From positions 431,724 through 495,723 of the forward strand of contig NZ_JAALFH010000067.1 of assembly GCF_011058255.1 (NCBI RefSeq): 64,000 nucleotides of DNA, read 5' to 3'. The notes beneath the pieces were generated by a model, which was given only the letters and a program-made list of their open reading frames with translations, did not search any database and was not told the origin of the DNA. The DNA is from Thioalkalivibrio sp. XN8. GTDB lineage: Bacteria > Pseudomonadota > Gammaproteobacteria > Steroidobacterales > XN24. The position numbers and the translations under genes are program-made. Of the stretch, positions 35,308 to 41,391 are shown piece after piece (the first letter of the stretch is position 1; every line of letters starts with the position of its first letter).

Positions 35308-36363
35308 TCAGCGGCTCTCGATGTCCGCCATCGTGAGGCCGCCCCGCAGGACGTGGGCGTCGAAGCCGCGCTCGCTCAGGATGTAGGCGGCAGCACTGCT
35401 GCGGCGGCCGGTGTCGCAGCAGACCACATAGGGCTTGGCGGGATCGAGCGTCTTCAGCTTCAGGCGGATGAAGTACAGCGGGATGTTGATCGCGCCTTCC
35501 TGGTGAAAGCTCTCGAACTCCGAAGGGAGGCGCACGTCGATCCACTGGCCGCCGCTGGCCACGATGCGGGACGCCTGTTCGAAATCCACCCACTGCAGCA
35601 TGGGCTCGTTCATCAGGGTGTTGAAATCTTCCTGCCCCAGCCGCATCAGGGAGCCGTCGCTCACCATGGTCACCGTGGCGTTGCGCTTGGCGTGGGAAAT
35701 CAGCGCCTCCTCGCCGAACGTGTCGCCCGGGCCGAGGTCGGCCAGCTTGATACCTTCCTTGTTCAGGGGCGTCTCGCGGGTGACGGCGCAGCGGCCGTCG
35801 GTGATGACGTAGAAATAGTCGCCCTCGTCACCCTGCTTGATGACCACGTCGCCGGCCTTGAAGTTGACCTGCTGCATGCGCATGAAGATGGCCTGGATGT
35901 TGGCCGCCGGAATGCGATGGAACGCCTTCGTCTGCAGCAGGGTAGTCATCCAGTCGTCGCTCTCCGGCAGGTTGCCGGCGCGCAGCTCGCTCACCTCGTA
36001 GGTGCCGGTCTGGTCCCAGGTGAGCATCACGTCCAAAAGGTCGGAATCGATCGCGACGAACTCGACCCGGCTCCGCGCCCGGGCACTGGCCCGGCGGGGC
36101 AGGCCCGGCGACAGCGGGCTGCGGGCGTCCGGCGTGCCGCCTTCGATCACCGACAACAGCCGGTCGCCGTCGCGCAGTTCGACCTCGCCGGAGACCAGGT
36201 AGATGGTGCGCCGGTCCGTGTCGCCCTTGCGGAAGAGGAAGCGCCCGCCGGGAATCTCCTGCACCGAGGTCTTCTCGGACAGGGCACGCAGGTTTTCCGC
36301 CTTCAGGCCGTTGAGGGGCGAGAAAGCCTTGAGTGCTTCGATGTCGAGGGACTTGCCGGGCAT
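35308..36363 (-). CDS. Two cyclic-nucleotide-binding domains fused to a rhodanese
   Basis: A 351-residue soluble protein. Residues about 10-130 form a first, degenerate cNMP-binding-like barrel (FLFRKGDTDRRTIYLVSGEVEL). Residues about 140-260 form a clearer one (IKQGDEGDYFYVITDGRCAV, then GPGDTFGEEALISHAKRNATV); the Arg in that last stretch takes the place of the usual phosphate-binding RxA arginine. Residues about 265-351 are a rhodanese with WIDVRLPSEF and the active-site loop CCDTGRRSSAAA. It suggests a sulfur-transfer or redox activity gated by a small ligand. A CATAAT (36398-36393) could be its -10. Confidence 0.85.
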   Translation of the reverse strand: MPGKSLDIEALKAFSPLNGLKAENLRALSEKTSVQEIPGGRFLFRKGDTDRRTIYLVSGEVELRDGDRLLSVIEGGTPDARSPLSPGLPRRASARARSRVEFVAIDSDLLDVMLTWDQTGTYEVSELRAGNLPESDDWMTTLLQTKAFHRIPAANIQAIFMRMQQVNFKAGDVVIKQGDEGDYFYVITDGRCAVTRETPLNKEGIKLADLGPGDTFGEEALISHAKRNATVTMVSDGSLMRLGQEDFNTLMNEPMLQWVDFEQASRIVASGGQWIDVRLPSEFESFHQEGAINIPLYFIRLKLKTLDPAKPYVVCCDTGRRSSAAAYILSERGFDAHVLRGGLTMADIESR

Positions 36364-36512
36364 AGCGGGTTGGGCGCTCCCTGTTGTTCTGGATTATGCT
36401 CCTGCGCGACCCGGGCCACGCGAGGAGTGCGGCGCGGCCGGAACCGCGCCGAAGGCAAGAATATCACACCAGTCGGCTCCCAAACGGGGTCCGGTCCGCA
36501 GTCCCCCCGGCG

Positions 36513-38543
36513 CTAGCGGGGCAGCTCCTCCCAGCCCGGATCGGGGGCGAAGCGCTCGCCGTAGCGGTCCTGGAGACGCTGCAGCGACTCGACCACGTCG
36601 GCCACGCCCCGGGCGCGGGCGAAGTGAATCGGCCCGCCCCGGAAGGGCGCGAAGCCGGTGCCGAAAATCACCCCCGCGTCGAGCAGGTCGAGGTCGGTAA
36701 CAACCCGGTCCCGCCAGACCGCCACCGCCTCGTTGACCATCGGCAACACGAGCCGGTCGGCCAGGTCCTGGGGCGGCGTCGCGTCCTTGACCTCGGGCTT
36801 GACGGGCTTGCCGTCTTTCCACTCGTAGAAACCGCGCCCGGTCTTCCGCCCGAGGCGCTTTTTCTCGACCATCTCGACCAGCCGGTCGGGCACGGGCACC
36901 CCGTAGGCGGCACCGAGGATCCGCGCCACGTGCAACGCCACGTCGAGGCCCACGGTGTCGGCGAGCTCGACCGGGCCCATGGGCATGCCGAAGCGCTTGG
37001 CCGCCGAATCGATGAGAGGCATCGGCACGCCGTCCTCGCCGGCCAGGAGCGCTTCCATCATGTAGGGCATCAGGACGCGGTTGACCACGAAGCCCGGCGA
37101 ACTGAGGCAGGGCAGGGGCAGCTTGTCGATCTTGCGGGTGAAAGCGACCCCCTTGTCGATCTCGGCCTGCGGTGTGTCTTCGGTATGGATGACCTCGACC
37201 AGCGGCATCATCGCCACCGGGTTGAAGAAGTGCAGGCCGATCAGCCGCTCCGGCTTCGCCAGCACGTCACGCAGGTCTTCGAGCCGGATGCTCGAGGTAT
37301 TGGTTGCCAGGATCGCGTCGGGCTTCATCCGCGGCTCGAGTTCGCGGAACAGCTTCTGCTTGGCCTCCGCGTCCTCGAAGATCGCCTCGATCACGACGTC
37401 CGCCTGCTCCACGCCCCGGCCTTCGACGTCCGGCATGAGCCGGTCCAGGGCGGCCTGGACCAGGCGCGGGTCCCGCAGTTTCTTCTGGTACAGCTTGGCG
37501 GCGCGCTTGACCACCGGGGCGATGTACTTCGGCTCCCGGTCCTGGAGCGTCACGTTCAGGCCGCGCAGCGCGCACCAGGCGGCGATATCGCCCCCCATGA
37601 CGCCGGCGCCGACCACGTGGACGTGGCGAAACTCGTAGCGCTGCTTGCCACCAAGGGCCTTCAGCTTGTCCTGCAGCAGGAACACCCGCACCAGGTTGCG
37701 CGAGGTGTCGGTGCAGAACAGCCGGGCGATGGAACGCGCCTCTTTCTCCATCATCAGCGCCGGCTTGTCGCCGTAACGCTGCCACAGGTCGATGATCGCG
37801 TACGGCGCCGGGTAATGGTCCCGCCGCGCCTTCTTGGCCACCTGCTTCTCCAGCACGCCGGCCAGCACCTTGCGCGCCGGACCGACGTTCATCAGGCGGT
37901 CCTGCAGCGGCAGCTGGCGGGGCTTCGGCGGCTTCAGCGCCAGCATCCGGGCCGCCCGCTCCAGGTGGCGCGCGGGCACGACCTGGTCCACCAGTCCCAT
38001 CGCCTTGGCCTGCTTGGGACGGATGTTCTTGCCCGTCAGCATCATGTCCATGGCCTTCAGGGGGCCGGCCAGCCGGACCGAGCGCACCGTGCCGCCGAAA
38101 CCGGGATGGATCCCCAGCTTGACCTCGGGCAGGCCAATGACGGTCTTGGGGTCGTCGTTGATGATGCGGTAGCGGCAGGCCAGCGCCAGCTCCAGGCCGC
38201 CGCCCAGGGCAAAGCCGTTGAGCAGGGCGATGGTCGGGCACTTGAGTCCCTCGAGCCGGTCCAGCACCTGCTGGCCGGCCCGCACCATTTCATAGGCCTG
38301 CTCGGCGTCCTCGAGGCCGGTGAACTCCTTGATATCGGCCCCGGCAATGAAGCCGGACTTCTTGCCGGAGGTGACCACCAGCGCCTTCGGCAGGTCCTTC
38401 TCGACCTGTTCCAGCACGGTGTTCAGTTCGGTCATCACGTCCCGCGACAGGACGTTGGTGGAGGCGTCGGCCTTGTCGAAGCAGAGCCAGGCGATGCCGT
38501 CGTCGTCCCGCTTGAGGGACCAGTGCTTGAGCGTATCGTTCAT
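36513..38543 (-). CDS. fadJ: Enoyl-CoA hydratase/3-hydroxyacyl-CoA dehydrogenase (FadJ-like)
   Basis: A 676-residue bifunctional alpha subunit of the beta-oxidation complex. The N-terminal crotonase part has SGFIAGADIKEF (oxyanion and Glu), GGGLELALACRYRI and GLPEVKLGIHPG. The dehydrogenase starts near residue 300 with HVVGAGVMGGDIAAW and includes GLHFFNPVAMMPLVEV. A C-terminal HAD domain follows. It is the last gene of an operon with the thiolase and the TetR gene, 4 bases after the thiolase. FadJ and FadB are hard to tell apart here; the split thiolase of FadI type favours FadJ. Confidence 0.9.
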   Translation of the reverse strand: MNDTLKHWSLKRDDDGIAWLCFDKADASTNVLSRDVMTELNTVLEQVEKDLPKALVVTSGKKSGFIAGADIKEFTGLEDAEQAYEMVRAGQQVLDRLEGLKCPTIALLNGFALGGGLELALACRYRIINDDPKTVIGLPEVKLGIHPGFGGTVRSVRLAGPLKAMDMMLTGKNIRPKQAKAMGLVDQVVPARHLERAARMLALKPPKPRQLPLQDRLMNVGPARKVLAGVLEKQVAKKARRDHYPAPYAIIDLWQRYGDKPALMMEKEARSIARLFCTDTSRNLVRVFLLQDKLKALGGKQRYEFRHVHVVGAGVMGGDIAAWCALRGLNVTLQDREPKYIAPVVKRAAKLYQKKLRDPRLVQAALDRLMPDVEGRGVEQADVVIEAIFEDAEAKQKLFRELEPRMKPDAILATNTSSIRLEDLRDVLAKPERLIGLHFFNPVAMMPLVEVIHTEDTPQAEIDKGVAFTRKIDKLPLPCLSSPGFVVNRVLMPYMMEALLAGEDGVPMPLIDSAAKRFGMPMGPVELADTVGLDVALHVARILGAAYGVPVPDRLVEMVEKKRLGRKTGRGFYEWKDGKPVKPEVKDATPPQDLADRLVLPMVNEAVAVWRDRVVTDLDLLDAGVIFGTGFAPFRGGPIHFARARGVADVVESLQRLQDRYGERFAPDPGWEELPR

Positions 38544-38547
38544 GGGG

Positions 38548-39858
38548 CTACTCCGGCTTGCTCTGCAGCAGCATGGCGCCGCCCTGGCCGCCGCCGATGC
38601 AAAGGGTGGCGACGGCAGTGCCGCCGCCCTGGCGCTCCAGCACTTTCAGGGCATGAAGCACGATGCGGGCGCCGCTGGCGCCCACGGGATGGCCGGTAGC
38701 GATAGCGCCCCCGTCCAGGTTGAGCTTGTCCTCGTCGATCCGGCCGACGGCGCCTTCGAGGCCCAGCACGTTGCGGCAGTAGTCCTCGTCATCCAGCGCC
38801 GCGAGACAGGCGAGCACCTGGCCCGCGAAGGCCTCGTTGATCTCCCAGTAGTCGATGTCGTCGAGGCCGAGCCCGTGGCGCGCCAGCAGGGGCGCCGAGG
38901 CGTGCGCCGGGCCCAGGCCCATCTCGGCCGGGTCCAGCGCGGCCCACTCGCAATCCTCGATCACGCCGAGCACCTCGAGCTTGTGCGCCTTCACGGCGGC
39001 CTCGCTGGCGAGCAGCAGCACGGCCGCGCCGTCGGTGATCTGGGAACTGTTGCCGGCGGTGACCTGGCCGACCTTGCGATCGAAGAAAGGCTTCAGCGTC
39101 GCCAGCTTCTCCTCGGTGGAGTCGCGGCGCAGGCCGTCGTCCTCCTCGTGGGCCCGGCCCGCGTCGTCATAGACCGCGACGACCTCGTCCATGCGGCCCT
39201 CGTCGAAAGCCGCTGCCAGGCGCCGGTGACTGCGCGCGGCGAAGCGGTCCATTTCCTTGCGGCTGATGCCGAAGCGATGCGCGATCACCTCGCAGGTCTG
39301 GCCCATGTTCATGCCCACGATGGGGTCGGTCAGCCCCTTGATGAGCGCGATCACCGGGGAGAAATGCCTGGGCCGCAGGCGGCTGACCTGGACGGCCTTG
39401 TCGAGCGGCGACTTGGCCCGCGCGAGGTCGGCCAGCCAGTTGACCATGTCCTCGTTGAACAGCACGGGCGCCCGGCTCATCGCCTCGGTGCCGCCGGCGA
39501 GGACGAGGTCGGCACGCCCCAGCCAGATATTGCGCGCGGCGGTATCGAGCGCCTGCATCGCCGAGGCGCAGTTCCGCATTACGGTGAAGCCGGGAACCTT
39601 GTTGCCGCAGCCGAGCCGCAGCGCGGCAATCCGCCCGATGTTGGGCTCGTCCGGGCTCGGCATGGCGCAACCCAGGATGACTTCGTCGAGTGCCTCCGGC
39701 GCGACCGGCTGGCGGGCGAGCAGGGCCCGGCCCGCCGCCACGACGAGATCCGAGGCGCTGAACGGCCCGGGGCGGCCGCGAGCCTTGAGAAAGGGCGTCC
39801 GGGCGCCGTCCACCACGTAGGCGCGGCTCGCGTGGGACGCGGATCGGGTCTTGGCCAT
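38548..39858 (-). CDS. fadI: Acetyl-CoA C-acyltransferase (FadI-like thiolase)
   Basis: A 436-residue thiolase that cleaves 3-ketoacyl-CoA. The nucleophile is Cys97 (MRNCASAMQAL); GGAIATGHPVGASGAR holds the catalytic His and LCIGGGQGGAM the second Cys. NEAFAGQVLA is also present. The length is closer to FadI (about 436) than FadA (about 390). It lies 3 bases after the TetR gene and 4 before fadJ, so all three are one transcript. Confidence 0.9.
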   Translation of the reverse strand: MAKTRSASHASRAYVVDGARTPFLKARGRPGPFSASDLVVAAGRALLARQPVAPEALDEVILGCAMPSPDEPNIGRIAALRLGCGNKVPGFTVMRNCASAMQALDTAARNIWLGRADLVLAGGTEAMSRAPVLFNEDMVNWLADLARAKSPLDKAVQVSRLRPRHFSPVIALIKGLTDPIVGMNMGQTCEVIAHRFGISRKEMDRFAARSHRRLAAAFDEGRMDEVVAVYDDAGRAHEEDDGLRRDSTEEKLATLKPFFDRKVGQVTAGNSSQITDGAAVLLLASEAAVKAHKLEVLGVIEDCEWAALDPAEMGLGPAHASAPLLARHGLGLDDIDYWEINEAFAGQVLACLAALDDEDYCRNVLGLEGAVGRIDEDKLNLDGGAIATGHPVGASGARIVLHALKVLERQGGGTAVATLCIGGGQGGAMLLQSKPE

Positions 39859-39861
39859 GTT

Positions 39862-40560
39862 CTACTCCTGGCGTTTCCTGGGGGTTGTCGCGCGCGCCGG
39901 CGGCCGGCGCCGACGCGGCTTGGCATGGGAGACGGGGGCGCGGAAGCCCGCCGTGACGAAAGGCAGCAGCCGATGGACCACCTGGCTGACGTTGTCCGGG
40001 CTCATGGACTCGCCCGAAACGAGTTCCACCAGCTGGCGCTCGGCCACGGGATAGGTCAGGGCACCCACCAGGAACTGGAGCCGCCAGCGGACGTCTGCCG
40101 GAGGAATCTCCGGCAGCACGCGGCACAGCGCGGCGTGGTAGCGATCCAGCACCCGCTTGTATTCGCCGGCGAAGTACGACTTGTAGGGCGCCTCGGCCTC
40201 CGCGTGGGTCTGGCCCAGCAGGCGCATCACCGTCGGCCCGCCCTGGGCCGGATCCCGCGCCAGGCTGGCCACGGGGCTCATGAATGCCTCGAGGATCTCT
40301 TCCAGGCTGGGTTTGCGGCGGCGGCGCTGGAGCTGCTCGAGATTGGCCAGGCGGGCGCGATTGAGCGGCTCCAGCCGCCGCCGGTACACCTCTTCGACCA
40401 GGCCTTCCTTGGAGCCGAAGTGGTAATTGACCGCTGCCAGGTTGACCCGGGCCAGGGCCGTGATGGCCCGCAGCGAAGTGCGCGCCACGCCGGTGCGGGC
40501 GAAGAGCTCTTCGGCAGCTGCCAGGATGCGGTCCTTGGTGGAGTCGATGAGGCTGGTCAC
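39862..40560 (-). CDS. PsrA-like TetR-family fatty acid regulator
   Basis: A 232-residue repressor. The N-terminal helix-turn-helix reads RILAAAEELFARTG, TSLRAITALARVNLAAVNYHFGSK (shown in pieces: TSLRAITALA, VNLAAVNYHFGSK), very like PsrA of Pseudomonas. The ligand domain has MRLLGQTHAE and RWRLQFLVGALTYPV at positions matching PsrA. A basic tail (AKPRRRRPPARATTPRKRQE) closes it. The start is GTG 40560 with no clear ribosome-binding site. It heads the thiolase-fadJ operon, with a PsrA-type palindrome 19 bases upstream. PsrA releases DNA when it binds long-chain acyl groups; the same is inferred here. Confidence 0.8.
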   Translation of the reverse strand: MTSLIDSTKDRILAAAEELFARTGVARTSLRAITALARVNLAAVNYHFGSKEGLVEEVYRRRLEPLNRARLANLEQLQRRRRKPSLEEILEAFMSPVASLARDPAQGGPTVMRLLGQTHAEAEAPYKSYFAGEYKRVLDRYHAALCRVLPEIPPADVRWRLQFLVGALTYPVAERQLVELVSGESMSPDNVSQVVHRLLPFVTAGFRAPVSHAKPRRRRPPARATTPRKRQE

Positions 40561-40579
40561 GCGAGGGGCCCCGGGATTA

Positions 40580-40591
40580 AAACAATCGTTT
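40580..40591. promoter_or_regulatory. PsrA-type operator
   Basis: AAAC-AATC-GTTT, flanked by TTAA on the left and AA on the right, matches the published PsrA pattern of AAAC and GTTT separated by 2-4 bases. It is in an AT-rich spot just upstream of the regulator's start, so autorepression of the whole fad operon is likely. Confidence 0.65.
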
Positions 40592-40656
40592 AATGGTAGG
40601 CGCAGCCCCGGATGACCGCAACACGACGCGCCGGTACCGGGCCGCCTGGACCCGGC

Positions 40657-41391
40657 TCAGCGCGGCTCGAATTCACAGATCAGCGGCAGGTGATCGGAAT
40701 AGCGGACCGCCGGAATGTCGAAGCCGCGCGGGCGGAGGCCGGGGCCGTAAAGGATGAAATCGAGTTCCTTGCGGGGCGCGTGGCTCGGGTAGGACGGGCG
40801 GCGCTCCTCGTTGGCGCTCTGCAGGCCGGCCGCCTGCATGAACAGGTACATCTCGTTCTCGCCCCAGAAGGTGTTGAAGTCGCCCGCGACGATCACCGGC
40901 TTGGTGGCCGCTTTCACCAGGTCGTGCAGGTGCCGCAGCTGCCAGGCGCGGTGGCGGTACTTGAGGGAGAGGTGGACCAGGAAGATGGCCACGTCTTCCA
41001 GTTCCAGCTCGATGATCAGGCGCTTGATGCCGGTGTCGAAGTAGTGAAACCGCTCCCCGTGCACCCGGGGCGCCGCCAGGAAAGCGTTGGCCTGCTTGCG
41101 GACGATCGGCAGGCGGGTGTTCAGCGAGCTTTCGCCGTACTTGCACTGGTAGGTGCTGTAGTGGCCCAGTTGCTGCGCGATGGCCTCCGCCTGGTTGACC
41201 ATCCCGGTCCGGATGGAACCCGTGTCGACCTCGACCAGCCCGATCACGTCCGGGTTGTGTTCCTTGATGAACTCGATGATCGCCTGGAGGTTGCCCTGGT
41301 TGCCGCGGAGGTAGCCCGCCCCGGGCAGGGGCAGGTGGAAACCGGCCCCGGTCCCGGCGGCGTAACGGATGTTGTAAAGGAGGAATTTCAC
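40657..41391 (-). CDS. Endonuclease/exonuclease/phosphatase-fold protein
   Basis: A 244-residue EEP-superfamily hydrolase. Motifs in order: LLYNIRYA (metal-site Asn), VIGLVEVDTGS (Glu), FLVHLSLKYRHR (His), VAGDFNTFW (Asp/Asn), ELDFILYGPG and YSDHLPLICEFE (the final Asp-His pair). All catalytic positions look intact, so it is likely active on a phosphodiester or phosphomonoester. There is no signal peptide. It could be a nuclease or a phosphatase; the family does not decide. It is divergent from the TIR-like gene. Confidence 0.82.
   Translation of the reverse strand: MKFLLYNIRYAAGTGAGFHLPLPGAGYLRGNQGNLQAIIEFIKEHNPDVIGLVEVDTGSIRTGMVNQAEAIAQQLGHYSTYQCKYGESSLNTRLPIVRKQANAFLAAPRVHGERFHYFDTGIKRLIIELELEDVAIFLVHLSLKYRHRAWQLRHLHDLVKAATKPVIVAGDFNTFWGENEMYLFMQAAGLQSANEERRPSYPSHAPRKELDFILYGPGLRPRGFDIPAVRYSDHLPLICEFEPR

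Follow-up and report, generated by a model that had tools for sequence, protein, structure and literature searches.

The regulator gene and its neighbors

The window is the whole stretch of DNA that was analyzed (64,000 nucleotides). It contains a TetR-type regulator gene followed by a thiolase gene and a fadJ-type gene. The features at the locus are as follows.

36513-38543, minus strand: FadJ/FadB-type enoyl-CoA hydratase/3-hydroxyacyl-CoA dehydrogenase (676 aa), with hydratase and dehydrogenase domains; best matches are FadJ models, below their cut-offs
38548-39858, minus strand: thiolase, acetyl-CoA C-acyltransferase (NCBIfam PRK08170, over the cut-off)
39862-40560, minus strand: PsrA-type TetR regulator, 232 aa, GTG start (Pfam, NCBIfam, and solved-structure search)
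40577-40594, minus-strand sequence ATTAAACGATTGTTTTAA: predicted PsrA-type operator, with the core AAAC-N4-GTTT at 40580-40591
40593-40621, minus strand: possible sigma-70 promoter TTGCGG-N17-TACCAT (TTGCGG at 40616-40621, TACCAT at 40593-40598), picked by eye, a weak match
40657-41391, minus strand: endonuclease/exonuclease/phosphatase-family gene, 96 bp upstream of the regulator

The three genes lie on the same strand throughout. The regulator and thiolase are separated by 3 bp, and the thiolase and fadJ by 4 bp. The first-pass annotation had described them as one autoregulated transcript. The short gaps and the regulator's own box ahead of them agree with this, and the single transcript is a prediction from the spacing and the position of the box. 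A promoter scan of 36300-40700 found no promoter over the threshold (0.3 expected). A terminator scan of the same region found two terminators against 2.1 expected, which is chance level. The order regulator-thiolase-fadJ is retained in six other genomes (G001, G002, G003, G019, G032, and G044). The start codon at the equivalent position is TTG, TTG, and ATG in three relatives, compared with GTG in the window.

The regulator contains a TetR_N domain (2.9e-13) and a TetR_C_30 domain (6.3e-28) by Pfam. It shows TetR domains only, which rules out a FadR of the GntR family. As to a FadR of the TetR family (Bacillus, Thermus), none of the 38 solved chains that it matched carries the name FadR. The best solved relative is 2fbq (E=2.8e-34; the next chain, 3e-12), which we take to be P. 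aeruginosa PA3006/PsrA and whose printed name is just "probable transcriptional regulator." The two proteins are about 39% identical. They have in common the domain pair, an identical DNA-reading stretch (VNLAAVNYHFGSK), MRLLG, and the W-R-x-x-F block, so the earlier description of the protein as PsrA-like in these parts was borne out. The domain pair is not specific for the PsrA type, because a sister-group protein (L009) carries both domains too.

In a reciprocal search with the 2fbq stretch, the regulator was the first match in the window's genome (G000), with 120.8 bits against 46.5 for the next. Its counterparts ranked first in G001, G002, and G003. The top NCBIfam match of the regulator is the PsrA model NF053516, at 154.6 bits against an equivalog cut-off of 300 bits; the model is named for Vibrio PsrA. 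The 2fbq stretch itself, at 228.6 bits, also falls short of this cut-off, which thus cannot serve to delimit the wider family. The searches, the DNA-reading helix, and the box together give good support for a regulator of the PsrA type, a term used here for something short of strict orthology.

A tree was built from 56 rows, of which 54 were different. Twenty-five of the best 80 homologous loci were selected for it manually, with duplicates omitted. A broad open group (81/62) contains the window's clade, Lysobacteraceae rows, betaproteobacterial rows with 2fbq, and the L008-L015 group with NicR. The Lysobacteraceae rows group in a clade of their own, separate from that of the window. Locus L031, titled as an uncultured gammaproteobacterium, falls within the window's clade; as its gene order is also that of the window, this points to Gammaproteobacteria. 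The tree does not settle orthology with Pseudomonas psrA. No close homologue of the regulator was found in the same-family genomes G004 to G006, and four of the seven family-f1 genomes have one.

The regulator could belong to a different TetR subfamily, such as betaproteobacterial FadP, that converged on a PsrA-like role. FadP, known here by description, is a predicted regulator of fatty acid degradation in Burkholderia, Ralstonia, and Comamonadaceae (PMC5343134), and most of the 80 record titles are betaproteobacterial. However, 2fbq itself joins the betaproteobacterial rows (85/85), on a long branch of a kind that the program warns of, and both the box and the DNA-reading stretch agree with those of PsrA. 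We consider convergence from such a subfamily improbable.

The regulators of the sister group L008-L015 are PsrA-like, and L009 to L013 come from genomes of the same taxonomic order. The site TTCAAC-N4-GTTGAA is exact within 250 bases upstream in 5/8 of these loci; it was picked because it fitted the PsrA pattern best, a possible source of bias. The DNA-reading stretch of L009 is altered (VDVALVNYHCGRK). These observations hint at an operator switch in this group.

The operator in front of the regulator

The operator sits within the 96 bp that separate the regulator from the gene upstream. Its core is about 20 bp ahead of the regulator start codon. The 3.11-Mb genome has 7 occurrences of the exact 12-mer AAAC-N4-GTTT (1 for the reversed control), and a chance match in a given 96-bp gap is expected about 2 times in 10,000. 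With a matrix built solely from other genomes, using the boxes of the best 80 homologous loci alone (42 distinct), the operator scores 28.4 bits.

The 80 homologous loci are the best 80 of 545 relatives from a separate genome collection, and many are mutually close. The search seeds were taken from the query, and one of them, NYHFGSKE, comes from its DNA-reading region. Within 250 bases before the regulator, all 8 core bases were found in 49/80 loci and at least 7 of 8 in 79/80; one locus (L106) has just 106 bases upstream. Five control patterns gave 0 to 1 and 2 to 18 loci at these two levels, and shuffles averaged 0.22 and 4.7. The box is also ahead of the regulator in all four of G000 to G003, at nearly equal distance. 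The operator is not a chance match, because its core occurs only 7 times in 3.11 Mb and 79/80 loci retain at least 7 of 8 core bases. The AAAC-N4-GTTT box that had been noted just upstream of the gene is present and conserved.

The operator abuts the presumed -10 hexamer, TACCAT. The possible promoter is partly conserved in relatives. From this arrangement, the operator would cover the transcription start.

Candidate boxes elsewhere in the genome

A pattern was drawn from the sites in G000, with several positions left free. It occurs at six places in that genome: the regulator, four further promoters, and an unexplained place (C33:132274). The genes at the further boxes were identified by Pfam, some also by NCBIfam. 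The four candidate boxes in G000 are as follows.

C45:36685-36700 (L146:1686-1701): fadE
C62:42150: second fadE
C30:138692: thiolase-fadB cluster
C48:36718-36733 (L154:719-734): phasin-patatin pair next to fadD; exact core, between a FFLEELY-motif gene and the pair

The boxes at the two fadE genes and C30 are weaker, with 14.9, 16.3, and 12.6 bits compared with 28.4 at the regulator's own site. The C48 box has the second-best score among the stretches scanned. Pattern places fall at orthologous promoters in 4/5 cases in both G001 and G002, which are of the same genus, and in 2/3 cases in G003, which is of another genus (the regulator and phasin). The C48 phasin box is retained in G000 to G003, that is, in four species and two genera. 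The reversed pattern also matches (forward/reverse counts of 0/1 in G000, 2/0 in G001, 2/2 in G002, and 1/0 in G003).

Across the five sites in G000 to G002, 59/60 half-site columns are identical, a figure that is partly ascertained since the pattern found the sites. The ungapped flanking columns are identical in 168/400 cases, which understates flank conservation. Site-specific variants are kept across species: CCCAAC at one fadE, and CATAC at the other fadE and at C30.

The first-pass annotation had proposed a scan for the same box before fadE, etfBA, or fadBA genes. Weaker, conserved boxes were found at two fadE genes and at the thiolase-fadB cluster. Around etfBA (L168 and L169), the matrix scan found no site of at least 6 bits. 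In the fadD stretch (L154), it found none of at least 6 bits besides the C48 box. With the phasin-patatin promoter, related boxes are present at four promoters besides the regulator's own, and the absence of further boxes, named at the outset as evidence against a PsrA-like regulator, was not what we found.

Scores of 11.8 to 16.8 bits also occur at places other than lipid-gene promoters (C32, 16.8; C33:350329, 15.8; C14, 12.7; C27:144268, 11.8). One random 3.11-Mb sequence, a single simulation, gave one site of at least 12 bits. The boxes at the two fadE genes and at C30 are assigned by promoter conservation and not by score, because similar scores occur at nonpromoter places. The C14 and C27:144268 boxes are inside genes. 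At C33:350329-350346 (L170:2530-2547), the box lies between converging genes, named by eye as pnp and a PhaR-like PHA regulator. At C32:148998-149015 (L155:2499-2516), it is about 30 bp upstream of the matched part of another TetR gene, and a gene nearby resembles an RND efflux pump by eye.

The palindrome TTCAAAC-N4-GTTTGAA with up to 3 mismatches occurs at 19 places in G000 (10 for the reversed control). Eight of the 19 were inspected: the five lipid-gene promoters, C32 (TetR gene), C33:350329 (converging genes), and C27:144268 (inside a gene). The remaining 11 score 9.0 bits or less. Only C48 was retained of the six other places with an exact core. By eye from open frames, C14:51288 was set aside as overlapping the start of a reading frame, and C38:32323, C38:128875, C63:71743, and C33:132276 have no recognizable lipid-related gene. 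Three additional pattern matches, one each in G001 (L159), G002 (L163), and G003 (L166), were set aside as well. Each is covered by an open frame longer than 150 codons; the first two have no mutual blastn match, and the last, the third site in G003, is near a contig end. In G019, G032, and G044, the box search is close to the reversed control (50/53, 75/65, and 54/50) and is uninformative there.

The regulator may instead act locally, on its own operon only, with the other boxes due to chance or to another TetR protein. The boxes other than C48 are weak, equal scores occur at nonpromoter places, and a comparable box (16.8 bits) precedes the C32 TetR gene itself. Against this, three species retain the four sites at the same lipid-gene promoters despite drifted flanks, and the C32 protein matches PsrA solely in its N-terminal part. 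A purely local regulator is, in our judgment, quite unlikely, and a PsrA-type regulator with several promoters remains the preferred reading.

By eye, four of the five boxes lie at a -10-like hexamer or shortly downstream of one, although the hexamer of the phasin promoter is weak. The fadE_C45 box differs from these four in being upstream of a conserved GTGGGTTATAAGCG block, which is TTATAA-like, so simple blocking of the polymerase may not fit there.

Proposed mechanism, known systems, and meaning

As judged from the sequence, we propose a PsrA-type repressor, responsive to long-chain acyl groups, that acts on its own operon, two fadE genes, the thiolase-fadB cluster, and the phasin-patatin pair, with a probability of roughly 0.83. 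This is the best explanation because of the homology, the operator and its conservation, the gene spacing, and the further conserved sites; from these we infer regulator binding, repression, the ligand, and the single transcript. The ligand of the regulator would be a long-chain fatty acid or acyl-CoA. In the unliganded state, the dimer would occupy the operator at 40577-40594, adjoining the presumed -10 and over the presumed transcription start, and would repress the regulator-thiolase-fadJ transcript. The same regulator would control the two fadE genes, the second thiolase-fadB cluster, and the phasin-patatin pair elsewhere in the genome. Once its C-terminal pocket takes up a long-chain acyl group, the regulator would leave the operator. 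Beta-oxidation and synthesis of the regulator itself would then be induced together.

The parallel for this release is Smlt2053 of Stenotrophomonas maltophilia. It is 39% identical to PsrA and heads an operon with a dehydrogenase and a thiolase (PMC10304680). It is reported to bind its own promoter, repress its own operon, and sense long-chain fatty acids (PMC10304680), which release it (PMC10304680, PMC13104628). By analogy, long-chain fatty acids may release the regulator in the window. The ligand or the sign may differ, with release by medium-chain, branched, or DSF-like acyl groups or with activation at some sites. DSF is a further signal to which Smlt2053 responds (PMC10304680), the first role found for PsrA was activation of rpoS (PMC13104628), and the fadE_C45 box is upstream of its presumed promoter; the other four boxes, in contrast, have the position of a repressor site. 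We hold such a difference to be doubtful, a minor possibility beside repression with release by long-chain acyl groups.

The Smlt2053-Smlt2051 operon and XAC2014-XAC2012 of Xanthomonas citri resemble the window in combining a PsrA-type TetR gene, a 3-hydroxyacyl-CoA dehydrogenase gene, and a thiolase gene, with an AAAC-type palindrome in their own promoter (PMC10304680, PMC6637906). XAC2014 has the gene organization described for Smlt2053 (PMC10304680), and autorepression was shown for Smlt2053. They differ from the window in gene order, which is regulator-dehydrogenase-thiolase in Stenotrophomonas and Xanthomonas and regulator-thiolase-fadJ here (PMC10304680, PMC6637906). Pseudomonas PsrA has the same domain pair, DNA-reading stretch, and AAAC-N4-GTTT box as the window's regulator. 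In P. putida, psrA has an operator in its own promoter and is repressed by PsrA (PMC13104628). It had been noted that psrA stands apart from fad genes in Pseudomonas, which is correct for P. aeruginosa, where it is a single gene (PMC10304680).

The regulators in the best 80 loci are 39 to 47% identical to the window's. Of these loci, 61 have at least 4.6 kb downstream. A thiolase is on the same strand in 48/61, with fadJ also in 47/48. These clusters (Achromobacter, Azonexus, Accumulibacter, and others, mostly betaproteobacterial by title) contain a homologous regulator, box, thiolase, and fadJ, as in the window, in the presumed order regulator-fadE-thiolase-fadJ. They differ in the distance from regulator to thiolase, which is 2.4 to 2.8 kb in 47/48 loci compared with 3 bp in the window. 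The gap in L061, the one locus annotated by Pfam, holds a 782-aa FadE. In L031, regulator and thiolase are adjacent, as in the window; this locus is possibly the same record as G044. No thiolase was found at the score used in 13/61 loci. One of these, L081 (Stenotrophomonas sp.), has a dehydrogenase/hydratase and another thiolase instead, which is the gene order published for Smlt2053. Its second gene is an open frame of up to 815 aa in which the dehydrogenase domains come first.

The contrast with Pseudomonas is not novel, because a self-controlled PsrA operon is published for Stenotrophomonas (PMC10304680) and such clusters are frequent in the loci found. Both the mechanism and the layout have published precedent. 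The window's case differs by its gene order, its clade, and the predicted phasin-patatin target.

The PsrA-type regulon probably, by a slight balance in favor, extends beyond beta-oxidation to the phasin and patatin-type lipase pair by fadD, whose box is shared with the divergent FFLEELY-motif gene. The genome contains a PHA cluster with a PHB_acc regulator, a phasin, a thiolase, and the N terminus of PhaC. In P. putida, deletion of psrA lowers PHA (PMC9049629), so a general link between PsrA and PHA is known, and the new part would be the direct phasin-patatin target. No link of PsrA to a phasin-patatin pair appears in the titles and abstract openings among the matches listed for PsrA with phasin, fadE, or patatin.

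If the extension is true, a single fatty acid sensor would link the burning of fat with storage granules and with the mobilization of lipids. The five promoters are a small, testable candidate PsrA-type regulon in an uncharacterized lineage. The loci compared here suggest that PsrA-type genes frequently share a locus with their own beta-oxidation genes, downstream of a conserved box; the solitary psrA of P. aeruginosa may be one variant.
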